Shown: positions 133 through 23,729 of the stretch, piece after piece
How positions within the stretch are numbered: position 1 is the stretch's first letter
How the letters are laid out: each line of letters opens with the position of its first letter
Virus record (IMG/VR): IMGVR_UViG_3300046817_000264
Location: 1-24,149 of that record
Length of the DNA: 24,149 nucleotides
DNA from: a virus
Direction: 5' to 3' (one strand)
Made by a program: the position numbers and the translations under genes
Notes under the pieces: generated by a model
Told to the model about the DNA's origin: nothing
Databases searched by the model: none
Seen by the model: only the letters and a program-made list of their open reading frames with translations

Positions 133-320
133 TCATCATCCTGTTCACGTTCCTCGCCGGCTGCGATGCCGCGTGGCATCTGCACCATGACGCGCCGCCG
201 AAGAGCCAGTCGTGGGACCAGGAAAATCTCAAGGCCGGCGACAACACTTGCCGCACGATGGTCTACCGGGTAAACCCGGCAACGAAGGAGCTCGAGCAAT
301 GCCCGCCGGATTCACTCTGA
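123..320 (+). CDS. small lipoprotein, possible Rz1-like outer-membrane spanin
   Basis: This is a 65-residue protein. The chosen start, ATG at 123, is preceded by AAGG at a 7-base spacing and gives a short hydrophobic leader (MALVIILFTF) followed by the lipobox LAGC at residues 11-14. Signal peptidase II would leave a mature chain of about 52 residues attached to lipid at Cys14. An upstream in-frame ATG at 30 would bury the leader and is less likely. The leader lacks the usual basic N-terminal residues. The mature part contains two further cysteines and two PP pairs but is not strongly proline-rich. Small phage lipoproteins are often the outer-membrane half of the spanin lysis complex (Rz1). 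That is an inference here, because no Rz partner or endolysin lies in the window. The next gene starts inside its last codons. Confidence 0.6.
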   Translation: MALVIILFTFLAGCDAAWHLHHDAPPKSQSWDQENLKAGDNTCRTMVYRVNPATKELEQCPPDSL

Positions 321-1024
321 TCGTTCCCTATTACCGCCAGCCGCTGATGCTGCAGCTGCAGATGACGCAGTGGCGACACTACCCGACCGACGTGAAGGTC
401 ATCTTGGTGGACGACGGCAGCCCGGAGGATGCGGAGCAGTACATCGACCATCCGCCGAGCCAGCTGAGCCTGTACCGCATCACCAAAGACATCCCGTGGA
501 ACCGCAACGGCGCGCGTAACCTCGGCGCCCATGTGGCGACAACCGAGTGGATCATGCACGTCGACATCGACCACGTCATGTCGGCGAACGTGATGGCTGA
601 GCTCATGCTGTGGCTGCCCGCGGCACACGATGACTGGTACCGCTTCCGGCGCTTCCGCGTGGGCATGGCCGACGAGACGCGCAACAAAGATAGTCTCCCA
701 CGAGACGCAGAACATGGGGAGATAAAGCCCCACATCGACAGCTACCTCATGAAGCGCAAAGCCTATCTCGATCTTGGAGGTTACGATGAACGTTATGCTG
801 GCTGCCTCGGTGGCGGCGGGGTATTTCTCCGGCGCGCTACTGAGGCGCTGGGCACGCCGCATGTGCTGGCCTTCCCGCTGGACGTCTACACCCGCAGCGT
901 TGTGCCAGACTCAAGCGAACACACTCTCTCGCGGGACACCGCAGAGTACGGCCGGCGCAAGCGCGCCTTCGGACATCTGAAGCCGATCAAGCCCCTCAAC
1001 TTCCCTTGGCATCAAGTGCTATGA
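299..1024 (+). CDS. GT2-family glycosyltransferase (GT-A fold)
   Basis: A 241-residue protein. The ATG at 299 has a GGAG ribosome site about 8 bases upstream and begins directly with the beta-strand FTLIVPYYRQ typical of GT2 enzymes. The nucleotide-binding motif VDDGS is at residues 37-41 and the metal-binding DXD-type motif HVDID at 87-91. GGYDE at 160-164 matches the acceptor-side GG(F/Y)DE motif of the family, but the ED pair that normally follows is replaced by a Gly run (GCLGGGG). The family transfers a sugar from a nucleotide-sugar donor to an acceptor; donor and acceptor cannot be predicted. It has no membrane segment, so it should act in the cytoplasm. It overlaps the preceding lipoprotein by 22 bases and the following methyltransferase by ATGA, placing it first in a four-gene coupled set. 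Confidence 0.85.
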   Translation: MPAGFTLIVPYYRQPLMLQLQMTQWRHYPTDVKVILVDDGSPEDAEQYIDHPPSQLSLYRITKDIPWNRNGARNLGAHVATTEWIMHVDIDHVMSANVMAELMLWLPAAHDDWYRFRRFRVGMADETRNKDSLPRDAEHGEIKPHIDSYLMKRKAYLDLGGYDERYAGCLGGGGVFLRRATEALGTPHVLAFPLDVYTRSVVPDSSEHTLSRDTAEYGRRKRAFGHLKPIKPLNFPWHQVL

Positions 1025-1587
1025 AAATCTTCTTAGACGTAGGCGCCCACGTCGGGCAGACTCTGAAGGCTGTCCGCGATCTGCCCTTCGATCGCATTCA
1101 TTGCTTCGAGCCCGTGCCCCAGCACTGGCCTATCCTGAGCAAACTGGCGCTTGGATACCCCGCCATCATCGAGAAGTTCGGGCTGTGGGGCAGCAACGCC
1201 AAGGTGCGGCTGTATGATCCGGGCTCTATGGGCGCGAGCCTCTGGCAGCGCGAGGGCCGCGGCACGCACTACACTACCTGCCAGATGCGAGACGCGGCCG
1301 ACTGGTTTGCCGCCAACATCGCCGATCACGACGAGGTATACATGAAGCTCAACTGCGAAGGCGCGGAGCTCGATGTCCTCGATAACCTGATCGACAACAA
1401 CTGCCTGCCGACACATACGTTGGTGATGTTCGACGCGCACAAGATCCCTGAATTGCACGGCCACTTGGCCGCCACGCGGGAGCGGCTTCTGGCCCACCCT
1501 AGCGTGCTGAGCTCAAAGCAGATCCAGCACGGCGCCACGCACGAGGCACGCATCCGCAACTGGCTGACGATGGTAGGCTTCTCATGA
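1021..1587 (+). CDS. FkbM-like SAM-dependent methyltransferase
   Basis: A 188-residue protein. The ATG at 1021 overlaps the previous stop as ATGA, so I prefer it to an in-frame ATG at 1006. Motif I of class I methyltransferases is clear: FLDVGAHVGQT at residues 4-14. It is followed by HCFEPVP at 27-33, which is characteristic of the FkbM family, and by YMKLNCEGAELDVLDN at 107-122, equivalent to the family's KxDxEGxExxVL segment. FkbM enzymes O-methylate sugars or related metabolites. Placed between glycosyltransferases, it probably methylates the glycan they build, a common way to cap or mask a sugar chain. It is shorter than typical FkbM proteins of about 220-280 residues but contains the whole core. 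It overlaps the next gene by ATGA. Confidence 0.82.
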   Translation: MKIFLDVGAHVGQTLKAVRDLPFDRIHCFEPVPQHWPILSKLALGYPAIIEKFGLWGSNAKVRLYDPGSMGASLWQREGRGTHYTTCQMRDAADWFAANIADHDEVYMKLNCEGAELDVLDNLIDNNCLPTHTLVMFDAHKIPELHGHLAATRERLLAHPSVLSSKQIQHGATHEARIRNWLTMVGFS

Positions 1588-2225
1588 AAGTCATGAGCGA
1601 ATTCGCCACGATACAGATGGCACTCGAGGGATGGTCGCTGTCCCGCTTCGGTGACGGCGAGATAAAGATGGCAGCGGGCACCGGCTACGTGCGCGAGCCC
1701 GGCAGCCCCAAGCTGGCCGCCGAGCTCAGCGCCATCCTGAAGCAGCCGCGGGCCCGGTGCCTGCCGTGCATCCCCACGTTCGACCCGGAGGGGCCAAAGG
1801 GCGGCAACTGGCAGCGGCACAAGCGGCGCTTCGAAGCCGCGATCGTGCCGGAGTACACCTACGGCTCAGCCTTCATCAGCCGCCCAGACAGCGCCCCGTG
1901 GATCAACACGCGCGCCTACTACAATCTGATTTCGCAGCTGTGGGCTGGCAAGACGGTGGCTGTGCTGGCCGAGCCCGCCAACTCCATCATGAAGGTGCTG
2001 GCCCTGACGGCGCGCAAGATCAAGCACGTCGAGTGCCCGCACCGGGAGTCATATGCCCGCATCGACGAATTCGAAAAGGCGCTGCGCTCCGGCAAGCCCG
2101 ACGTGATAATCATGTCGTGCGGCCCCACGGCTACCTGCCTGGCGAACCGCCTGTCGAAGTACCACCACGCGATCGACATTGGAAGTGCCGGCGGCTTCCT
2201 GCTGAAGCTGGCGTGCGCGCGATAG
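1584..2225 (+). CDS. GT-D fold (DUF1792-like) glycosyltransferase
   Basis: A 213-residue protein starting with ATG at 1584, in an ATGA overlap with the methyltransferase. The N-terminal motif LSRFGDGEIKM (residues 19-29) matches the RFGDGE signature of DUF1792/GT-D glycosyltransferases, where the Asp-x-Glu pair coordinates metal and nucleotide sugar. A second conserved-looking segment near the C-terminus, AIDIGSAGGF (196-205), fits the DxG element of that fold. The centre has a Rossmann-like strand GKTVAVLAEP (122-131). GT-D enzymes in bacteria extend O-glycans on surface proteins. The acceptor here is unknown; it could be the sugar laid down by the GT2 neighbour. The assignment rests mainly on the RFGDGE motif and length. 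Confidence 0.7.
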   Translation: MKVMSEFATIQMALEGWSLSRFGDGEIKMAAGTGYVREPGSPKLAAELSAILKQPRARCLPCIPTFDPEGPKGGNWQRHKRRFEAAIVPEYTYGSAFISRPDSAPWINTRAYYNLISQLWAGKTVAVLAEPANSIMKVLALTARKIKHVECPHRESYARIDEFEKALRSGKPDVIIMSCGPTATCLANRLSKYHHAIDIGSAGGFLLKLACAR

Positions 2226-2977
2226 TCACATGGCTCTGGGGCGGCACGCGCAACTTCGCGCCGGCCCACGTCAATATCATGGAGCGAATGATTAACCGCC
2301 ACATGAGCGGCGGCCCCTACAATTTCATCTGCATCACCGACTCACCCAAGGAACAATTCAGTGAACACGTCAACGTCCTTGCCACCCCTCCCGAAGCAGC
2401 CCTCTTGTCCGATCTGCGTTCCCCAGAGGGCCCTCGCTTTCCTTCGTGTTATAGACGACTTTGGATGTTCTCTGAAGCTGCTCGGCTTCTCGGATCACGA
2501 TGTCTACTCCTGGACATTGACGTCGTGGTCCTCGGCGATCTTTCGCCACTATTCGAACTGCAGGGTGAATTTGTCGGATGGTATCCGTACCGGGACTGGG
2601 GAGTGCGCCGCAAAAGATTTGGCGGAGGCATCTACATTATATCAACCGGAACGCGACTCAAAGTGTGGGACGGTTTCGTGGCCTCACCTCGCAACGCAAT
2701 CGCAGCTGCCCGCCGGGCGGGATACCGTGGTTCAGACCAAGGATGGATTAGCTACTGCCTCGCAGAGCGCGAGCCCTACATGTCGAGAGCCGCGGGAATC
2801 TACTCAGTCCGCGACCCCGGCATATCGAGACTGGCTCCCCCGGTAGACGCAAGACTCGTGCAGTTCAACGGCGGGACAAAGCCGTGGGCGTCCGACTGGC
2901 CGTGGGTCAGGGGCGCTTGGCAGCCAGTGCCGACGCTACGTCCACGCGATCTTGATTCTGCCGAAGCAGTATCGTGA
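2213..2977 (+). CDS. DXD glycosyltransferase, last gene of the cassette
   Basis: A 254-residue protein. The start is GTG at 2213, which overlaps the end of the previous gene by 13 bases and opens with IVTWLWGG, the usual beginning of this family; much longer in-frame reading to 1757 would only duplicate the upstream gene in another frame. Visible elements are HVNIM followed by FICITDS (residues 19-23 and 38-44), the metal-binding LLLDIDVVVLGDL (98-110), FGGGIYI (136-142), SDQGW (174-178) and VQFNGGTKPW (216-225). This order (WG..., TDS, DID, SDQ, final FxG...KPW) resembles GT8/GT32-like retaining transferases. The last 20 residues lie beyond the recognisable domain and overlap a convergent gene by 71 bases. 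Positions 2340-2900 are less GC-rich than the three upstream genes. Confidence 0.8.
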   Translation: MRAIVTWLWGGTRNFAPAHVNIMERMINRHMSGGPYNFICITDSPKEQFSEHVNVLATPPEAALLSDLRSPEGPRFPSCYRRLWMFSEAARLLGSRCLLLDIDVVVLGDLSPLFELQGEFVGWYPYRDWGVRRKRFGGGIYIISTGTRLKVWDGFVASPRNAIAAARRAGYRGSDQGWISYCLAEREPYMSRAAGIYSVRDPGISRLAPPVDARLVQFNGGTKPWASDWPWVRGAWQPVPTLRPRDLDSAEAVS

Positions 2978-4898: not shown

Positions 4899-6932
4899 TT
4901 AATTGAGCGCCCAATAGAGTGTGAGGGAGACGTTGTTAAACCCCTTGCTGGTGACAGTATTAGTCCAGCCCGTAAGGGAGCCGTTCTTGCGCACGCTGAT
5001 GGTGCCGCTGGATGCGACGTCAACAGAGACGATAGCCGCGGCCGTCAACTGCGAGCCGGCGTCGATGAAGCAAAAGGATGGCACTAGCTGTACCCAGTTT
5101 CGCGTAGGGGTTATCTCGGCGGGCAAACCAGTGAACGTCAGCGCGTTGCTGCCGCTGGTCATCGCCGCGAAAGCCGGAATCTGCATCATCACCACGTTGC
5201 CCATCTTCGCCCATACGGCCGTTACCGTGGGGGCAGTGGTGCCGCCAGTCTGCGTGAGCGTGGACGTGCCGGTGTCTGGGGTCATATCCACAGCGCCGCC
5301 TACCGTGGCGCCGTACCCGAGGATTGCGCCGTCACCGCGCACTTCGAAATAGTTTTTGGCTCCCGTGTAGTCTTGGCATATCAGGCTCCAGTCGGATGAA
5401 CTGTTACCGGCCTTGATCGCCACACCGTAAGCGGTGCTGCCACTCTTGACAGATACGACGGCTAGCGCGTTGTTGGCGCCGCTGCCGTTGAACGTGAAGT
5501 TGGAGATGCCGGTGCCCGTGGGCGGCCCGAAGGTGCCCACGCCGTCGCCGCGGATGTTGAAGTAGTCGTGGACGCCGGTATTATCCGCCACGTCGAACGC
5601 AGTGTCCGAGCTATTGGTGCCCGCGTTGATCTGAAGCCCGTCAGAGTGCCCCGTGGTGGCCGACCCTATGATCTGTACCGGCAGATCGGCAGCATTCTGA
5701 ACGTAGACGTTGTTGCCAGCGGTCGGCTGGAATGTCCACGAGCCAGTCAGCGTGGGCGAAGAGCCTTCGACCGCGGCGATAGCCCGCGCATCCGTGTAGC
5801 CATCCGAGGCAGTCGAGCCTACACGCTTGAGCGTCAGCAGGATGACGATGCTGGTAAAGATGCTGGTCGAATTGAGGTGGAACAGGACAGAGTCGCCGGC
5901 CGACAGCGCCACCGAGTTGAATTCGGTCAGCGCGGTATCCAGGTAATACTTGCCGCCGCTCACGAGTAGCGGCGAATTCATGATGGTGTTCGTCACCGTC
6001 GGCGGGTAGTTCGCCGAGCCCGAAGGCGTGCGCCAGATGTCGATGGAGCAGGAGCCCGTGCCGCCTTCGGTCAGGATGGCGGCGCTGGTAATCGTGCAGT
6101 CTTCGGCGATCGTGATAGGGATGTCGCTCGCCGGCACGGTGAGCGCGATGACGCTCGACCATGTACCGCCGCGCTGCTGAATGAGCGCCGAGGAGTTCAT
6201 GCCAGGGGGGCCCTGCTCGCCTTCCGCGCCAACGTCGCCCTCGAGCGGAGGGCCGGAAGGCCCCTGCGCACCGGGCGGGCCGTCAGCGCCGGCCGAGCCA
6301 GTAGCCCCAGTAGCGCCCGTAGCGCCCGTAGGGCCGGGCACCGGGTCGCCGTCCTGCCCAGCCGGGCCCTCATCGCCTGCGGGGCCTAGCGGCCCTGCGG
6401 GGCCCTGCGCGCCATCTGCGCCCGTAGCTCCTGTAGCGCCCGTAGCGCCGGTCGGGCCGGTAGGGCCGGGCACTGGGTCGCCATCCTGCCCGTCGGCGCC
6501 ATCCTCGCCTGCAGGGCCTGGAACGGCCGTGCCGGGCGGCCCGTCGTTGCCGGTGTCGCCCTTGGGGCCCTGAGCGCCCGGCGGGCCGGGGTCGCCGTCC
6601 GCGCCGTCACCGCCCGCGCCGCCTTCGACGATCGGGAAGTTCCGGGTATGGAAGGTGCCATCCGAGTCGCGCACCACCGCGCCCTGCCCGCTGAGGGCGG
6701 CCAGCTGGGTGATGTTCGGCGGGATATTGAGAATGCGTATCCACTGGACATTCTGGTCCGAGCTCGAGCTCGAGCCGACGCCCAGCAGGGCGGCCAGCTG
6801 CGCCACGGTCAGGACGCTGCCGCTGGGGCCGCGGAGGTCGACGCCAATGGTGGCACCGGCAGTGGCGCCCGAGTCGATGACGACTGACTTGTTGTTGCCC
6901 CCGACTATGGGGACTCGAATCCTACTCGCCAT
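4899..6932 (-). CDS. tail fibre / receptor-binding protein with collagen-like stalk
   Basis: A 677-residue protein. Residues 1-103 form a non-repetitive head that should attach to the virion. Residues 104-245 are collagen-like Gly-X-Y repeats, including GATGATGATG twice. Residues 250-375 look like a beta-sandwich. Two related beta-repeats follow, each ending in YF(N/E)(I/V)RGDG (457-464 and 528-535). Residues 566-677 have the strand pattern of a C-terminal receptor-binding domain (VWAKMGNVVMM, then NALTFTGLP). Collagen-like triple helices serve as trimeric stalks in phage fibres, so a trimer is expected. ATG at 6932 overlaps the previous stop by 11 bases. This is the best candidate for host recognition in the window. 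A secreted bacterial collagen-like protein is unlikely, given the neighbours and the lack of a signal peptide. Confidence 0.88.
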   Translation of the reverse strand: MASRIRVPIVGGNNKSVVIDSGATAGATIGVDLRGPSGSVLTVAQLAALLGVGSSSSSDQNVQWIRILNIPPNITQLAALSGQGAVVRDSDGTFHTRNFPIVEGGAGGDGADGDPGPPGAQGPKGDTGNDGPPGTAVPGPAGEDGADGQDGDPVPGPTGPTGATGATGATGADGAQGPAGPLGPAGDEGPAGQDGDPVPGPTGATGATGATGSAGADGPPGAQGPSGPPLEGDVGAEGEQGPPGMNSSALIQQRGGTWSSVIALTVPASDIPITIAEDCTITSAAILTEGGTGSCSIDIWRTPSGSANYPPTVTNTIMNSPLLVSGGKYYLDTALTEFNSVALSAGDSVLFHLNSTSIFTSIVILLTLKRVGSTASDGYTDARAIAAVEGSSPTLTGSWTFQPTAGNNVYVQNAADLPVQIIGSATTGHSDGLQINAGTNSSDTAFDVADNTGVHDYFNIRGDGVGTFGPPTGTGISNFTFNGSGANNALAVVSVKSGSTAYGVAIKAGNSSSDWSLICQDYTGAKNYFEVRGDGAILGYGATVGGAVDMTPDTGTSTLTQTGGTTAPTVTAVWAKMGNVVMMQIPAFAAMTSGSNALTFTGLPAEITPTRNWVQLVPSFCFIDAGSQLTAAAIVSVDVASSGTISVRKNGSLTGWTNTVTSKGFNNVSLTLYWALN
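6198..6623 (-). repeat. collagen-like Gly-X-Y coding repeat
   Basis: This stretch encodes residues 104-245 of the fibre with Gly at nearly every third position. It contains short tandem nine-base units coding GAT GAT GAT around 6301-6330 and 6421-6452. A longer near-duplicate codes GQDGDPVPGPTG at 6324-6359 and again at 6456-6491. The arrangement suggests expansion by internal duplication and makes the region prone to length variation. Confidence 0.9.
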
Positions 6933-17797: not shown

Positions 17798-18886
17798 TTA
17801 CGCCAGCGCCAGTACGGCATGCGCATTGCGCTTGCCGGTCGTGAACGCAGCCTTTGAGGTCAGGCCCCAGTAGTGTACATAGCGGTCGTACACGCGAGGG
17901 GGACGGCGCGAAACCATCCAGTGACCCGTAATCGGGCGCAGCTGAATGAATTTCGAGTTGAGGAAGTAGCAACGGCTCTTCCAGGGCACGGTCGGCGTGT
18001 CCAGGGTGTCGATGTCGTCAAACACCGGGTCCCAGATCACTTCGACGCCCTTGAAGTACAGGCCGGTCGAGGTCTTCGAGCCGACGCCGCCATCAAGAGT
18101 TGTGGCCTGCTTGTTGCCGGTGCTGCCACCGAGGAACACCTGACGCTGAATCGCGCCGCCCGGAGAACCGGCAGCTGCACGATAGGCGTCGATGAAGTCT
18201 TCACCCGCGAGGATGAAGTCGGGGGCCATGCCGCCAACGCGGATACAGAAACGCCATGCCTTTTCCATCGACTCCAGGAAGTCTGCAGCAGTCGACCCGA
18301 GGGTCAGATCGCTGTAATTCCTCCACCACGAGTTTGCGCTCGTGCTGGCGTCGATACCACCAACGGTCGTCTGCGCCGGCACCGTGCTGACCAGAAGGTC
18401 GAGGCCCGGAATGTCGGTCGTGGACTGCGTACCGTCGCGGTGGATCATGATGTCGAAGTTCTGGACAAAGCCCAGCTTCAACGTCTCGAGGTTCTCCTCG
18501 AGAAGATTCGTCAGCTGCACCTTCTCAGCATCCGTGGGGGTGCTGGACCGATCGTCGGTCATGATGATGCCGTTCTGCGCGAGCTCGTCCTCGTTCAGAC
18601 CGAAACCGTCGTGGAAGGCGCCCCAAACGTACTTGGCCTGCTGCAAAGTGCGCTTGCGGTTGTAGCTGACCTGGCTGTCGCCAAAGTAGCTCTGGAAGTT
18701 GCTATCGTTCTGATAGCGCAGCTGCTCTACAACGTACTGAAGACCGCCCGAATAGTCCTTTTTGGACCCCATGAACTTATTGAGCAACGGATGCGCAATG
18801 TTGTACTGGTCGATCGGGTCATTCTTCAGGAAGTAGTCAATCGCTGCCTTGCCGGCGTACGCCAGCTGTTCAGTGGTGAAAGGCAT
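17798..18886 (-). CDS. major capsid protein
   Basis: A 362-residue protein with a strong ribosome site, AGGAG, seven to eight bases before ATG 18886. The N-terminus (TTEQLAYAGKAAIDYFLKND, residues 4-23) and the GAFHDGFGLNEDELAQNGI segment are features I associate with capsid proteins of short-tailed phages. The length and the alpha/beta pattern fit the HK97 fold. The last third contains RCYFLNSKFIQLRP and a conserved-looking RYVHYWGLTSKAAFTTGKRN, typical of the capsid C-terminus. There is no protease domain or long N-terminal delta region, in keeping with a separate scaffold protein upstream. The gene is preceded by the longest non-coding stretch of the late operon, 123 bases, which may hold its own promoter. 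Confidence 0.85.
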   Translation of the reverse strand: MPFTTEQLAYAGKAAIDYFLKNDPIDQYNIAHPLLNKFMGSKKDYSGGLQYVVEQLRYQNDSNFQSYFGDSQVSYNRKRTLQQAKYVWGAFHDGFGLNEDELAQNGIIMTDDRSSTPTDAEKVQLTNLLEENLETLKLGFVQNFDIMIHRDGTQSTTDIPGLDLLVSTVPAQTTVGGIDASTSANSWWRNYSDLTLGSTAADFLESMEKAWRFCIRVGGMAPDFILAGEDFIDAYRAAAGSPGGAIQRQVFLGGSTGNKQATTLDGGVGSKTSTGLYFKGVEVIWDPVFDDIDTLDTPTVPWKSRCYFLNSKFIQLRPITGHWMVSRRPPRVYDRYVHYWGLTSKAAFTTGKRNAHAVLALA

Positions 18887-19009: not shown

Positions 19010-19774
19010 TTAGACGGCAACAAGCCAGCCCTTGTCAAGTCCCGGCCTCGCCTCGGCCTGCGACAGCTGGACGACTTCACCGGCGTTGAGCGTGTCATTG
19101 GGGCGGAAAGTGTGCCCGTGGACCGCCTTGTAGCTCCGTATCGTCTGGTTGATTGCCTCCAAACGATAGGGGACTGCTTTGGGCCGTTCGAACGTCTCTT
19201 CTGGCGTCCAGAGCGGGAAGAATTCCTTGAGGGGGCCCGAAACCGGCCGAATGGGGTAATTTCGGCTCCAATTAGCCAATTCCTTCATCCGCTGCTTCGC
19301 ATAGTGGCTCGGAGGGCCGGTTTTCGGCCGCGGGATCTTGTTTCGCTGGTCCGCGTCGTGGAAGTACACGCGGCCGGTGCCGAAAAGGTCGATTCCGGTC
19401 ACTACGACCGGCCAGGCGCCTAACATGCACGCCACGGCGACTGCAGTCACGCCGGAGTTGGCCGCGAACTTCCACCCAACGAGCCGATAGTCCGCCCACG
19501 AGTGCTGGTTGATGATTGGGACGCCGTAGGGGCGCAGATACTCTTCCATGTGGATGCGGCGGGCACAGTGGATCTTGTCGACGTTCACGATGAAGTCGAC
19601 TTTGTAGTGCCCCTGATGAAAACCGTGCTCATTGGCCGAAATCACGATGCCCGGCTTGAATCCAGCTTCGTCCAGCTTCGGAAGATCGAGGCGCGCGGAG
19701 GGCCCGCCGCCGATTACAAGCGCCGGTTGACCAACATACGTCTCGAGTAGGTCAACTATAGTGCCCGGTGCCAT
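19010..19774 (-). CDS. DUF115/MptE-like Rossmann-fold protein, putative sugar or phosphotransfer enzyme
   Basis: A 254-residue protein from ATG 19774, overlapping the metalloprotease gene by 19 bases. A Rossmann-type start, PALVIGGGPSARL (residues 17-29), holds the GGGPS motif. It is followed by ISANEHG and FIVNVDKIH. A second block, ANSGVTAVAVACMLGA (105-120), leads to VVVTGIDLFGTG (123-134), matching the SGxxAxxxAxxLG and GxDL elements of the DUF115 / 6-hydroxymethylpterin pyrophosphokinase MptE-like family. Members include Maf glycosyltransferases that move nonulosonic acids onto flagellin. The last 35 residues (RPNDTLNAGEVVQL, then a Gly near the end) look like a small added phage domain. 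A sugar-transfer role in virion assembly is possible but inferred. Confidence 0.65.
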   Translation of the reverse strand: MAPGTIVDLLETYVGQPALVIGGGPSARLDLPKLDEAGFKPGIVISANEHGFHQGHYKVDFIVNVDKIHCARRIHMEEYLRPYGVPIINQHSWADYRLVGWKFAANSGVTAVAVACMLGAWPVVVTGIDLFGTGRVYFHDADQRNKIPRPKTGPPSHYAKQRMKELANWSRNYPIRPVSGPLKEFFPLWTPEETFERPKAVPYRLEAINQTIRSYKAVHGHTFRPNDTLNAGEVVQLSQAEARPGLDKGWLVAV

Positions 19775-20217
19775 TTGAGTTGAAAATACCGTGAGGTCAG
19801 CGTGAATTCTTTTTCGTCCATCACCCGATACTTCAGCAGAAGCTTGCGGTAGTACGCCATGAAGACCGGACCGTGGTCCTGAATCTTCGCACCGTACTTA
19901 TCGAAGCCGATCTGATGCGCGCACTCGTGCAGCACCGTCGCATAGTTCATCCCGCCCCGCCCGCGGCGGCTGGGGCCCTGCATCGAGATGGTCCGCATGG
20001 CCGGAACGTTCCAGCTGTAGCGGTTCGACGGGCCCTGAATGACCTTTACCGGCTTGCAGCGCTCGCCTGCGAGCGCTTCATCCGCGAGGGCTTGGCAATC
20101 AGCGAGTGTGAGGGTGCAGACGTTCCAGGTTTCATGGCTGGCTTCCCAACGATAAACCGAATCGCGCTGCGGGTCGCTCGCATCAGCTTTTGCCTTCGAT
20201 TTGCGCACCCGCTGCAC
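19756..20217 (-). CDS. SprT/WLM-type zinc metallopeptidase, HExxH
   Basis: A 153-residue protein. The zinc motif HECAH is at residues 97-101, within ATVLHECAHQIG, and a third ligand, His115, lies in DHGPVFMAYY, an HExxH plus HGxxF arrangement as in SprT-like proteins. The annotated start is GTG 20217; GTG 20208, with GAGG nine bases upstream, is an alternative that would remove three residues. Before the catalytic helix lie SNRYSWN and a basic segment. The protein is short and has no C-terminal zinc ribbon. Its place between scaffold and capsid suggests processing of scaffold or another head protein. That is an inference, because capsid proteases of tailed phages are usually serine enzymes. 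Confidence 0.78.
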   Translation of the reverse strand: MQRVRKSKAKADASDPQRDSVYRWEASHETWNVCTLTLADCQALADEALAGERCKPVKVIQGPSNRYSWNVPAMRTISMQGPSRRGRGGMNYATVLHECAHQIGFDKYGAKIQDHGPVFMAYYRKLLLKYRVMDEKEFTLTSRYFQLKWHRAL

Positions 20218-20225
20218 CCTCGCAT

Positions 20226-21380
20226 TTAGTTGCCGTCCCCCGCCAGCGAGAAGTCTATCGCTTCGCGCAGCGATTTGGGAGCCGCTTTTGCGCCACTCGT
20301 CCCACTTGGCGATACCGGCCTCATTGGCTGGCCTTTTTTCGCCGGGGCGAACTGGCCCGTGACGGGATCACGCACCATTGCCACGCTGCCAGGCGCGGCC
20401 GCGGGCGCCGGGGCCGCCGCAGGCGCCGGGGGCAGCTTCACGCTGGCCCAAGCCCGCTGAAAGGCCGCTTTCCACTGCCGGGGCGGCAGATCCTTGAACG
20501 CTTCGCTCAGCGGACCGACGATCAGGTCGTACTTGCGCTGGTAGTCCGGGTCGGACGCCTGCAACTGGTCGCCGAGCTCATTCATTTCGGAAATCGCGAT
20601 GTTGCGCTCTGCAGTGGCCTCTTGCTCGGACTTAGTGCGAGCCGCAGTCGCGGTATACGCCGCTGATGCGCGGTTGCGCGCCTCACGAGCGACCGCAATC
20701 TCCTGCGCGTGGTCCGTGGTTATCTGCCCGTAGCGCACCGCCTGCTGCAGATCCTCGTGCTTCGAGAGGAAATCCACACCAGGCACCGTCTTGCCCATGC
20801 GCAGCGCGACGCCCTCGAGCATCGTCTGCAGCGCCTGCTGGCAGCGATCGAGGCCGGCCGGGTCTTGCCCGTTGAAGTCGCGCAGGAACGTGATGATCCC
20901 GCCGAACTGCTCTGGCGTCGCGCCAGTGGACATCACAGCTTCGACAAGCTTGCCCTGATTCTCGATCGTAGCGTCTTTTTCCTTGACCGCAGAAACCAGA
21001 GAAGTGATACGCTCACGAGCGCGTTCACTCCACTCAGCAGGAACAGGATCGTTCACATGATCGGCAGCCTTTTTCTCGGTGCTCTTATCCTCGCCCTCTT
21101 TAGCAGCACCGTCCGCGGCATCCTTGGCGTCGTCCTTTTTCTCGTCCTTGCCTGCGCCGCTACCTTCTTCACCCTTAGCCTCGCCGGCAGCTTCATCAGC
21201 TGGCTTTTTGGGGCCGCGGGCGGGAGCTGAATCGACTCCGGCGCTGATCGCACTGAGCAATTCCGCTTTCGGATCTGCTGCCGGAGTCTCTACAGCCGGC
21301 GTCTCTACTGACGGCGTCGAATCGACACTAATGTCGCTTTCGAGCTCTGCTGCCGGTGTCTGATTTTCTTCTGTTGTCAT
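20226..21380 (-). CDS. scaffolding-like protein
   Basis: A 384-residue protein from ATG 21380. Residues 1-110 are disordered and extremely charged, with Glu/Asp/Lys/Ala runs such as KDEKKDDAKDAADG. Helical segments follow (RARERITSLVSAVKEKD at about 120-136, then a long helix at about 230-270). The C-terminal third has an Ala/Pro linker and a basic tail ending SLREAIDFSLAGDGN. Lying between portal and capsid, with high charge, coiled-coil helices and no catalytic motif, this is the usual profile of an assembly scaffold that binds coat through a basic C-terminal helix. The neighbouring metallopeptidase may cleave it. A tail or core protein is less likely in this position. Confidence 0.75.
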   Translation of the reverse strand: MTTEENQTPAAELESDISVDSTPSVETPAVETPAADPKAELLSAISAGVDSAPARGPKKPADEAAGEAKGEEGSGAGKDEKKDDAKDAADGAAKEGEDKSTEKKAADHVNDPVPAEWSERARERITSLVSAVKEKDATIENQGKLVEAVMSTGATPEQFGGIITFLRDFNGQDPAGLDRCQQALQTMLEGVALRMGKTVPGVDFLSKHEDLQQAVRYGQITTDHAQEIAVAREARNRASAAYTATAARTKSEQEATAERNIAISEMNELGDQLQASDPDYQRKYDLIVGPLSEAFKDLPPRQWKAAFQRAWASVKLPPAPAAAPAPAAAPGSVAMVRDPVTGQFAPAKKGQPMRPVSPSGTSGAKAAPKSLREAIDFSLAGDGN

Positions 21381-21395
21381 GGGTGGCTCTCTACG

Positions 21396-23729
21396 TTATT
21401 TCGAGGGTGGTCCGCCCGGCTTAGGGGGCGTGGGTCTGTCAAGCGAAAGCGGGGGCATGGGCACCGCGGTACCCGGAATGTGCGAAGGGAGGTTCAGCCC
21501 GGTATGCACGCCGGTCTTGTGGACGGCGCCCGGATGCGGAGGCGGTGCGCCGCCTGGCGGATGCGGGCCCGGAGGCGTGTTCGGGCCGGCGATCGGCGGC
21601 GGGCCGCCCGGCAGCGTCGGGCCGCCCGGAGGGCCAATACCTGAGTGCGCGGCCTCGGCGCCCATGAGCACCGCTTCCTGTTCCGGCGTGATGGTGCCCT
21701 TCAGCTGAATCGCCACAGTGGTCTTCGGGAGCTCCGGCGGCGGAGGATTCGGCTGGCCCTGCGGGATGAAATCGTCGATGTCGAGACGATCGTCCATGCG
21801 ATGCAGCGTCTCTTTCAGGATATTGATAAGCGCCTCGGCCATGCCTGGGTCTGACATCTGCGCGGCGCGGATCTTGCCGAGCGACTGCTCGAGCAGTGGC
21901 AGGATGGTGGCCCAGTTGGCCTTGTCCGCGGCGAAGTTCGGGCGGCCGGTCGAGCCCGCGTCGATCGACACCTCGGTCATCGTGAGCACGTCTTCGACGT
22001 CCATCGGGGGCGTACCCTTCTGGTCGTCCGGGCCGAGCCAGTAAGCGCCCTGGCCGCACACGCGCTGCACCCAAGACAGCGGGCATTCCTGCGTCGCTAC
22101 CTCGGCGGTGTACTGCGCCATGTCCGTGAGTGCTTCCTCGAGCGTATCGCGGTCCGCGCCGGTGCGCGAAGCGAAGCCCTGCTGCTCGATCTGCGCCTCG
22201 GTGGCCGTCTTGCGGTCCGCACCGGCCGCGTTCTGCTGCAGCGCTTCCTGCACGCCGGAGATTGACTCCATGTCGGCGCGGATTGGCTGCGTGTCGTACA
22301 GCATCGGGTTGTAGGTGCCGACCGGCTTGGCGATGAACGCATTCTGCAGCGGCTGATCCGCCGTCATGCGAACTTCAATGAGCTCCTGCTGGTTCGCGTC
22401 GCTGATCTTGCGCGCGTCCTGCGGGTCTACCGCGGCGCCGTTGAAGATGACACCCGTCACCGAGCGCTCGCGCGTGAGGCGCTGGTTGCTGCGGCATGAA
22501 CTGTACTCGTCCTGCAGCTTGCGCAGGCGCCACGACAGCGACTGCGGATGCCGCTTGCCCTCAACCGGGAAGAAGGCGAGGTAGAAGAAAGGATAAAAGC
22601 GCGTGCTCGCCTGCGGGGGCGGGAACGGCGGCGTGGCCCAGCACTTCAGGCCGTCCACGCAAGTCTTGACCATGTAGTCGCGGCGGTCCCACTTCTCGAT
22701 GATCTTGATGAATTCGACCGGCTTCGCGTTCGTGTTGCCGTCACCGCTGCCGCCGCCACCGGGCGCAGTCTTGGTGAACGTGCCTTCGCTGATCTGGCTG
22801 TCGCCCAGCACCGCTTCGGCCGCGGTGTCCATCGGCTTCAGGTCTTTCTGGTAGAACTTCGTCATCGCCTTGTAGTCTTCGGGCTTCAGGTCTGGGAATC
22901 GCTTCCGAGACTCGCAAGCCGGGACGTACATGTCGGTCGAAATCCAGTCCGCTTCCTTGTACTGCGCCAGATCCGACACGTTGAGCGACACCTGAATGTC
23001 TTCGGGGCGCACGTAGTCGACGATGAAGCCGTAGCGCTTCTTCTTCATCAGCCCGGCTTGCATCCCGCGAATCTTGATCTGCAGCGCCGCGGCCTGCTCT
23101 TCCTTGGACTCGTCGCTGTCGCCTTCCTGCATCTCCTGCTGGGCGGCCTGAATCGACGCAAGCTGATCCTGCGCGGTTTTCAGGCTCTGCTCGAGCTCCG
23201 GCGCCGGCACTTTCTGCGTCAGCATCGTGCCCTTGACCCAGCCCGGCCCGCACGTCAGCGCGGAGCGGACCCACTTCTTGCCGTTCAGCTTTAGGTGGCC
23301 GTCTTTCCAGAGCCGAGTGATAACCAGTTCCATTGTGTCGGCGAATTTGGTGGCCTGGTCGTTAGGCTGCTCGTCAACTTGCAACGCCGGCTTGACCCCA
23401 GGATCGGGGTTCTGTGCGTAGAGGAATGAAACGAGAATGTCGATGAAGGAGCCGATAAGGTTCGCGTCGCTCGCCCAGTTAGGATCAGCGAGGCCAGCAG
23501 CGTATTTGCGATCACGGTTGTACTGAATGCGCGCATCTTTGTCGAACTGCCGTGCGGTGTTGTATTCCTCGAAGAATGTCTTGACGAGCTCGAGCTCGCC
23601 CTCGTCGATTTCGTTGTCGGCGTCGGGGATCGAGTTTACGCCTACCTGCGCGGCCTGTCCCGCCGGGCTCGGAGCCGACGTGTTCGGGTCGGCGAAGGTG
23701 CCCAGCATTTCATTGACGTCGTCAGCCAT
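21396..23729 (-). CDS. portal protein
   Basis: A 777-residue protein starting at ATG 23729, sharing one base with the upstream stop (TGATG). It has the profile of large podovirus portals: an acidic N-terminus, VKTFFEEYNTARQFDKDARI (residues 49-68), a channel-proximal SFIDILVSFLYAQNPDP (94-110), and later SLSWRLRKLQDEYSSCRSNQ. A Gln/Glu-rich coiled coil occupies about 178-230. Residues 694-777 form a Pro/Gly-rich tail that is probably disordered. Twelve copies would form the DNA entry vertex, contacting the scaffold and later the adaptor. Terminase genes are not in the window and probably lie beyond the right edge. Confidence 0.85.
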   Translation of the reverse strand: MADDVNEMLGTFADPNTSAPSPAGQAAQVGVNSIPDADNEIDEGELELVKTFFEEYNTARQFDKDARIQYNRDRKYAAGLADPNWASDANLIGSFIDILVSFLYAQNPDPGVKPALQVDEQPNDQATKFADTMELVITRLWKDGHLKLNGKKWVRSALTCGPGWVKGTMLTQKVPAPELEQSLKTAQDQLASIQAAQQEMQEGDSDESKEEQAAALQIKIRGMQAGLMKKKRYGFIVDYVRPEDIQVSLNVSDLAQYKEADWISTDMYVPACESRKRFPDLKPEDYKAMTKFYQKDLKPMDTAAEAVLGDSQISEGTFTKTAPGGGGSGDGNTNAKPVEFIKIIEKWDRRDYMVKTCVDGLKCWATPPFPPPQASTRFYPFFYLAFFPVEGKRHPQSLSWRLRKLQDEYSSCRSNQRLTRERSVTGVIFNGAAVDPQDARKISDANQQELIEVRMTADQPLQNAFIAKPVGTYNPMLYDTQPIRADMESISGVQEALQQNAAGADRKTATEAQIEQQGFASRTGADRDTLEEALTDMAQYTAEVATQECPLSWVQRVCGQGAYWLGPDDQKGTPPMDVEDVLTMTEVSIDAGSTGRPNFAADKANWATILPLLEQSLGKIRAAQMSDPGMAEALINILKETLHRMDDRLDIDDFIPQGQPNPPPPELPKTTVAIQLKGTITPEQEAVLMGAEAAHSGIGPPGGPTLPGGPPPIAGPNTPPGPHPPGGAPPPHPGAVHKTGVHTGLNLPSHIPGTAVPMPPLSLDRPTPPKPGGPPSK

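Follow-up and report, generated by a model that had tools for sequence, protein, structure and literature searches.

The archaeal 6-hydroxymethylpterin diphosphokinase MptE and thiamin pyrophosphokinase transfer pyrophosphate, not sugar. Maf proteins, according to the accessible text of PMC11339370, glycosylate flagellin and are built of three domains, the central one of which (PF01973) resembles the sialyltransferase CstII. Phage particles can be glycosylated as well: the accessible portions of PMC11256854 and PMC12363180 describe mycobacteriophages that modify capsid and tail-tube proteins with glycosyltransferases of their own, and through them we also cite Freeman et al. (2023) for the virion glycosylation of Che8, Corndog and Myrna. 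In the open-access literature searched, we found no publication that describes a DUF115/MptE-like gene next to a phage capsid gene; PMC12839542 mentions DUF115 in an unrelated setting.

The window, by which we mean the whole analyzed stretch of 24,149 nt, comes from an uncultured virus and carries a DUF115/MptE-like gene among the following features.

212-1024, plus strand: GT2 glycosyltransferase (E 1.1e-9, over the cut-off)
1006-1587, plus strand: FkbM-type methyltransferase (22.1 bits, cut-off 22.7)
1584-2225, plus strand: GT-D-fold glycosyltransferase (E 1.7e-19, over the cut-off)
2216-2977, plus strand: GT8-like glycosyltransferase (weak match, under the cut-off; a relative is fused to a DUF115-like domain in contig L015)
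17518-17826, minus strand: possible decoration protein of 102 aa, its gene overlapping the capsid gene at the 3' end
17798-18886, minus strand: major capsid protein, candidate glycan acceptor (phrog_9953, E 3.2e-33, and phage homologues)
19010-19774, minus strand: DUF115/MptE-like protein of GT42/Maf fold, 254 aa, a probable sugar transferase by sequence and predicted fold
19013-19147, minus strand: small C-terminal beta domain of that protein, residues 210-254 (GINS-B-like fold, weakly DUF7210-like)
19756-20217, minus strand: SprT-like metallopeptidase with a HECAH motif, second gene of the insert, upstream of the DUF115 ORF
20226-21380, minus strand: putative scaffold gene, named by position, at the upstream edge of the cargo slot
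21396-23729, minus strand: putative portal gene (24% identity to the annotated portal of OP028995)

ORF 19010-19774 starts with ATG and translates into 254 codons with 0 internal stops. Its start overlaps the SprT-like ORF by 19 nt, and 123 nt separate its end from the ATG of the capsid gene, as expected from the original prediction, which had placed a DUF115-type ORF directly before the capsid gene. The capsid protein has homologues in Rhizobium, Microcystis and Myxococcus phage records, and the putative scaffold is 25% identical to the gene preceding the capsid gene in phage RHph_N65. Homologues of the DUF115-like protein with 31-56% identity occupy the same place in 14 further contigs of the capsid lineage. 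Comparison of the window gene with five relatives gave pN values (0.29-0.42) lower than pS (0.52-0.72) in all five pairs, and the genes of contigs L050 and L082 differ with a pN of 0.05 and a pS of 0.44. These homologues and the excess of pS over pN show that the ORF did not arise by chance and is a real coding sequence under purifying selection.

In Pfam, the sole family matched by the protein is MptE-like PF01973 (E 2e-4), with a score of 21.6 bits that lies below the 34.6-bit cut-off; we therefore regard it as a distant homologue and not as a member of the family. In PHROGs it matches phrog_4603 'alpha-2,3-sialyltransferase' (E 0.0034), which its relatives match with E-values down to 3.6e-9, and a phmmer search of the PDB returned CstII at E 0.087. 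PF01973 is matched by 23 of 29 relatives at E<=0.1 (best 2.7e-10). A profile of 15 members of the window lineage reached CstII in the PDB at E 5e-4 and did not reach MptE in the same list. When the 29-sequence profile was aligned by hhalign with 24 large PF01973 proteins from Pseudomonadota genomes, the probability was 94.4%, and GGPS, Asp66 and GxD129 were in register.

With the window protein alone as query, the sole named phage record found was MW202621, together with one identical viral contig, and no plasmid matched. Profile scans yielded 28 further public records with a DUF115-like gene (one named phage and 27 viral contigs); a first scan of bacterial genomes found none and a second found three loci. 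A PF01973 family search gave no match above the cut-off in nine virus records or three bacterial genomes.

An AlphaFold2 model from 29 sequences reached a pLDDT of 91.9 and a pTM of 0.91, and the conclusions on the fold are drawn from it. An earlier model, from a 15-sequence alignment without the window lineage, had a pLDDT of 73, was unsafe in regions 133-152 and 201-254, and ranked MptE level with Maf. The top match of the second model is Maf (PDB 5mu5; Z 12.8, 200 residues, 5.1 A), followed by CstI (Z 11.2, 173 residues, 4.0 A), CstII (Z 11.2, 169 residues, 3.8 A) and MptE/HPPK (Z 10.9, 145 residues, 3.2 A); GT29 sialyltransferases gave Z about 7-8 (6.8-7.8) and thiamin pyrophosphokinases Z 5-8. 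A match to SteA (Z 10.2) was set aside, the fold being held in common. This comparison, which the original prediction had proposed, bears out its assignment of the protein to a Rossmann fold of a family that includes sugar transferases. The PF01973 fold (Z 10.9-12.8 to 8sd5 and 5mu5) and its core motifs G-GPS, D and GxD are both present. Since the model matches Maf, CstI/CstII and MptE, the label "DUF115/MptE-like" is valid as a statement of distant homology; as a family assignment of the window protein alone it falls short, at 21.6 against 34.6 bits.

The last 45 residues fold into a separate unit similar to the B domain found in GINS replication proteins (1.8 A, Z about 6). DUF7210 is weakly matched at this domain in two relatives, and stand-alone copies of the domain lie 3' of the DUF115 gene in L004 and L006.

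The residues that can be compared with Maf, MptE and CstII are encoded as follows.

19697-19711, minus strand: GGGPS loop, residues 22-26 (compare GGPS in Maf and MptE, GNGPS in CstII)
19625-19633, minus strand: Asn48-x-His50, invariant in 29/29 relatives
19577-19579, minus strand: Asp66, 29/29, in register with the Asp of large PF01973 proteins
19451-19456, minus strand: Ser107-Gly108, aligned with CstII Ser132-Gly133
19388-19390, minus strand: Asp129 of GxD, aligned with CstII Asp154 and the PF01973 GxD
19364-19366, minus strand: Tyr137, in register with CstII Tyr162 and kept by 15/15 members of the window lineage

All 15 members of the window lineage have G23, G24, P25, S46, N48, H50, D66, R97, G108, G127, D129, Y137 and G180, and 14 have G22, S26 and S107. 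Across all 29 relatives, G23, S46, N48, H50, D66, G108, G127 and G180 are invariant; D129 is found in 27, G24 and P25 in 24 each, S26 in 20 and Y137 in 16, loop residues G24, P25 and S26 being variable in the second capsid lineage. The phmmer alignment places S107, D129 and Y137 on S132, D154 and Y162 of CstII. The GT42 fold (Z 11.2) is thus accompanied by the donor-site Ser-Gly, Asp and Tyr, with Tyr137 kept in the window lineage only. We take H188 to be the catalytic base of CstII, and the roles of the other CstII residues are likewise assumed. At the corresponding place (residues 140-180), where the alignment is gappy, histidine never exceeds 3 of 15 sequences per column in the window lineage, or 9 of 29 in the full set of relatives. 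The conserved histidine of the family is H50, which is absent from the large PF01973 proteins aligned, and Asn48-x-His50 is a family-specific motif. From the GGGPS loop and the cleft residues, the conservation of nucleotide-binding residues on which the original prediction depended is seen in the window lineage (G23, G24, P25, N48 and D66, 15/15) and is mixed in the other.

A capsid profile scan gave 326 matches, of which the best 80 were analyzed. Contigs with a capsid identity of at least 62% to the window make up its clade (n=49 after removal of duplicates), the values of six capsid genes of the clade being inflated because these genes are fragments. The 49 leave out the window itself (the same virus as L002), L110, L068 and L084 (with the same slots as L053, L067 and L083) and L052, L120, L121 and L123, in which the scaffold was not seen; 24 distant contigs with scaffold and capsid genes (capsid identity 27-45%) were used as comparison only. 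Among these best 80 of 326 matches, the gap between scaffold and capsid genes measures 489-3917 nt in the 49 clade contigs, compared to 13-238 nt in the 24 distant ones, which identifies the insert as a cargo slot of the window clade.

Within the best 80 of 326 matches, a DUF115 gene occupies 15 of the 49 slots and a GT2 gene 13 (Pfam E 3.3e-12 in L066), while GT2 or the adjacent phrog_1574 gene is present in 19/49 and together with DUF115 in 0/49. For this exclusion Fisher's test gave p 1e-4, or 0.0045 for GT2 alone, on contigs that are related and not independent samples; the 235-aa partner of the L066 type is GT-like by eye only, since phrog_1574 is of unknown function and Pfam gives no match. 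Mapped onto the capsid tree, the presence of DUF115 requires 6 changes, where shuffled labels require 13.5, and well-supported branches demand at least 4 of the 6; the trait is therefore clustered and has a history of few gains or losses. A SprT-like gene fills nine of the 49 slots (best 80 of 326), seven of them with DUF115; the peptidase thus partners DUF115 in 7 of 15 slots of the window lineage and is commoner there than a GT. One slot encodes a sugar-type C-methyltransferase (Methyltransf_13/14, E 4.6e-39), and other genes seen in single slots encode a PIG-L-like deacetylase, methyltransferases and a histidine phosphatase. The slot also holds non-sugar genes, namely those for the histidine phosphatase, an HNH-like protein and phrog_825.

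Several further slot genes were observed. The commonest one besides the sugar enzymes encodes a small phrog_825-type protein (for example L070:7290-7700), with 25 ORFs before duplicate removal in the best 80 of 326 matches and a function given as unknown in PHROGs. In the proteins encoded at L061:6245-7204 and L065:6703-7755, a methyltransferase domain precedes a CTP-dependent riboflavin-kinase-like one (PF01982, E 1.7e-12); their genes adjoin a PIG-L-like deacetylase and a DUF115 gene. In L053 (6817-7101) and L056 (7587-7877), an unrelated small HExxH protein (phrog_1233, HEVMH) stands in place of the SprT-like HECAH protein, a swap of peptidase type next to the capsid gene. L050:2313-2912 combines a hydrophobic N-terminus with a DFHTHP motif; it is JAB/MPN-type peptidase-like by eye and has no match in PHROGs.

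The DUF115-like gene was also found in another capsid lineage, in 28 records, four of which are cut upstream, leaving 24 informative. Gene boundaries in relatives are longest-ORF calls passed through a greedy overlap filter, and a gene map by similarity was used because shadow ORFs had masked some capsid genes in a first map. In 24/24 contigs with a readable upstream side, the gene is immediately preceded, in the same orientation, by a capsid gene of the Gp13-like/phrog_247 type. A methyltransferase or GT is adjacent or fused in 22 of these, a GT in 15, and 12 of the 15 are near-copies with the order capsid, methyltransferase, GT, DUF115, small DUF7210-like ORF, head-tail adaptor. The GT adjoining DUF115 in this arrangement matches phrog_1962 'glycosyltransferase' (E 6.4e-38); a GT2-like gene in L016 stays under the cut-off (Pfam E 0.004), and L013 and L017 have neither methyltransferase nor GT. 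All three bacterial loci (Xenophilus sp. Marseille-Q4582, a betaproteobacterial MAG and Lysobacter dokdonensis DS-58) show the capsid-then-DUF115 order and a methyltransferase, and two of them a GT; those of Xenophilus and Lysobacter are prophage-like. As the adjacency recurs in two capsid lineages that are unrelated, the capsid link is firmer than the single position from which it was originally drawn.

In L015, a GT domain and a DUF115-like domain share one 504-aa frame, and the GT domain is 43% identical over 257 aa to the GT8-like protein 2216-2977 of the window; this fusion, one frame in one contig, may be a sequencing slip joining two overlapping genes. Relatives of the GT8-like gene occur in 4 of 10 DUF115-bearing records (E 3e-71, 1e-66, 3e-23 and 3e-6) and in 0 of 19 DUF115-negative ones, which comprise 13 of the same clade and 6 distant records (Fisher p 0.009, rising to 0.024 against the same-clade negatives and to 0.068 when strong matches alone are counted). 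The gene is unseen in the other 6 of the 10, some of which are fragments, and the GT-D gene is found in 2/10 versus 0/19. The fusion, the adjacency elsewhere and the co-occurrence point to a DUF115-like protein that works with GT8-like transferases. Glycosyltransferases are thus encoded by these phages themselves, with GT2 and GT-D over the cut-off in the window, and GT2 and phrog_1962 beside the capsid gene in relatives. With GT2, FkbM-type, GT-D and GT8-like genes all present on the plus strand, it is fair to call the DUF115-like protein a fifth possible sugar-handling enzyme of the phage, as was originally suggested, provided that the methyltransferase is counted.

Two observations were made around this cassette. 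The GT8-like gene in the record of L054 (G013:2774-3493), 52% identical to that of the window, has one TAG within the matched stretch. A collagen-repeat protein is encoded near the cassette at 4899-6932 on the minus strand (E 9.5e-15) and is a possible alternative glycan acceptor.

We propose, with the chances for and against about evenly balanced, that the DUF115-like protein is a sugar transferase and belongs to a module that glycosylates the virion by modifying a head protein. From the observations above we infer its catalysis, sugar donor, acceptor, docking and selective benefit. As a small cytoplasmic enzyme with the Maf/GT42/MptE fold, it would draw on a nucleotide-activated sugar as donor. 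With the plus-strand GT2, FkbM-type methyltransferase, GT-D and GT8-like proteins as partners, it would build or cap a short glycan on a head protein. The major capsid protein would be a first candidate acceptor, along with the 102-aa protein behind the capsid gene as a possible alternative, and docking on head proteins may be the task of the C-terminal beta domain. Its gene is carried in a slot of exchangeable content next to the capsid gene, so that the transferase would be made along with the head proteins. The capsid proteins of the three cargo groups are alike in Ser+Thr content, and no Ser/Thr-rich clade-specific loop was seen in them, a result that is compatible with a glycosylated capsid as well as with an unmodified one. 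A sugar-transferase-like gene beside the capsid gene and the swaps of sugar enzymes in relatives suggest that these phages put sugars on their own virions. The capsid glycosylation hinted at by the original prediction therefore gains from family, fold, residue conservation in the window lineage and capsid adjacency, while sugar transfer and the capsid as its acceptor stay a proposal.

The module might instead serve acceptors outside the head, either host cell-surface glycans, whose change would mean receptor change or superinfection exclusion, or the phage tail or collagen-like fiber; the place beside the capsid gene would then be a tolerated insertion site in the late operon. The collagen-repeat protein adjoining the plus-strand cassette fits this idea, as do the non-sugar genes taken up by the slot and the accessible part of PMC12363180, in which tail-tube as well as capsid proteins of mycobacteriophages are glycosylated. 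Against a virion module also count the 6 of 10 records without the GT8-like gene and the presence of GT-D in just 2 of 10. However, a random insertion site would not be expected to recur beside the capsid gene in 24 of 24 contigs of an unrelated capsid lineage, and on the opposite side of that gene, and the slots listed showed neither a flippase nor a membrane-bound partner. We consider a non-head acceptor rather unlikely.

The protein might also transfer nucleotidyl or pyrophosphate groups as MptE or thiamin pyrophosphokinase does, for example in a small-molecule modification during infection. Sugar transfer has against it the lack of a conserved His at the GT42 base position, the sub-cut-off Pfam score and a fold common to these pyrophosphate-transferring enzymes; the sole Pfam family matched is MptE-like, MptE structures give Z 10.9-12.7 and thiamin pyrophosphokinases Z 7-9, and the invariant D66 is aligned with the PF01973 Asp. 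With the better model, however, Maf and the GT42 sialyltransferases match equally well or better, the sequence profile finds CstII and not MptE, and pterin, folate and thiamin genes are absent from the neighborhoods seen, which hold glycosyltransferase and methyltransferase genes. We regard such an activity as improbable. Least probable of all, in our judgment, is a helper of head assembly, in which a catalytically idle domain, the SprT-like peptidase and the C-terminal beta domain would form a capsid chaperone or processing factor. Seven of nine SprT-like slots do carry DUF115, an unrelated HExxH protein replaces SprT in L053 and L056, and the G24-P25-S26 loop varies in the second lineage; but the cleft residues N48, H50 and D66 are invariant in 29/29, and among the best 80 of 326 matches DUF115 is missing from 34 of 49 same-clade slots and hence dispensable for assembly.

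Returning to virion glycosylation, a broader and more tentative reading, to which we give appreciably less than an even chance, takes the slot of the clade as a dedicated 'glycan cassette' and the DUF115-like family as phage single-domain Maf-like capsid glycosyltransferases. The scaffold-capsid gap of a soil-type podovirus clade would swap alternative enzyme sets in and out, either a DUF115/Maf-fold transferase or GT2 paired with another GT-like gene, with a methyltransferase or deacetylase as a further addition, so that sister phages would have similar heads with chemically different sugar coats. The DUF115-like family would modify the major capsid protein, and two capsid lineages would each have acquired it on their own, one before and the other after the capsid gene. 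If true, heads of environmental Caudoviricetes would often be sugar-coated by capsid-adjacent enzymes, the coat being an exchangeable trait, and an insert between scaffold and capsid genes would be a simple genomic sign of glycosylated virions. Scattered phage genes annotated as 'hypothetical' or 'MptE-like' would become testable virion-modification genes, and the Maf/GT42 fold would extend from flagella and lipooligosaccharide to phage heads.

The phage protein shares with Maf (PDB 5mu5) the fold (Z 12.8), the GGPS loop, the conserved Asp and GxD, and Maf modifies the subunits of a self-assembling surface structure, as we propose for the phage protein. Maf, however, transfers nonulosonic acid to its protein acceptor and has three domains and, in the Pseudomonadota genomes analyzed, about 830 aa, whereas the phage protein is one domain with a small C-terminal beta domain: its residues 1-250 match 259-593 of a 632-residue chain, the central domain only, and the Asn-x-His motif is its own. 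With CstI and CstII, the Campylobacter GT42 enzymes, it shares the fold (Z 11.2) and the aligned Ser-Gly, GxD and Tyr (CstII S132, G133, D154 and Y162); it differs in that H188 of CstII has no conserved His counterpart and Asn9 of GNGPS is Gly. MptE (PDB 8sd5), which uses ATP to pyrophosphorylate a pterin, is alike in fold (Z 10.9) and gives the Pfam family its name, but the phage protein scores under the cut-off of that family and, circumstantially, no pterin genes are among the neighbors seen. A further parallel is mycobacteriophage virion glycosylation, which likewise relies on phage-encoded glycosyltransferases. Those of Maravista reportedly lie near the 3' end of the genome, whereas the enzyme described here is of the DUF115 type and sits in a swap-in slot beside the capsid gene. 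Phage virion glycosylation was already known; the enzyme type, the repeated capsid adjacency in two lineages and the exchangeable slot look new.
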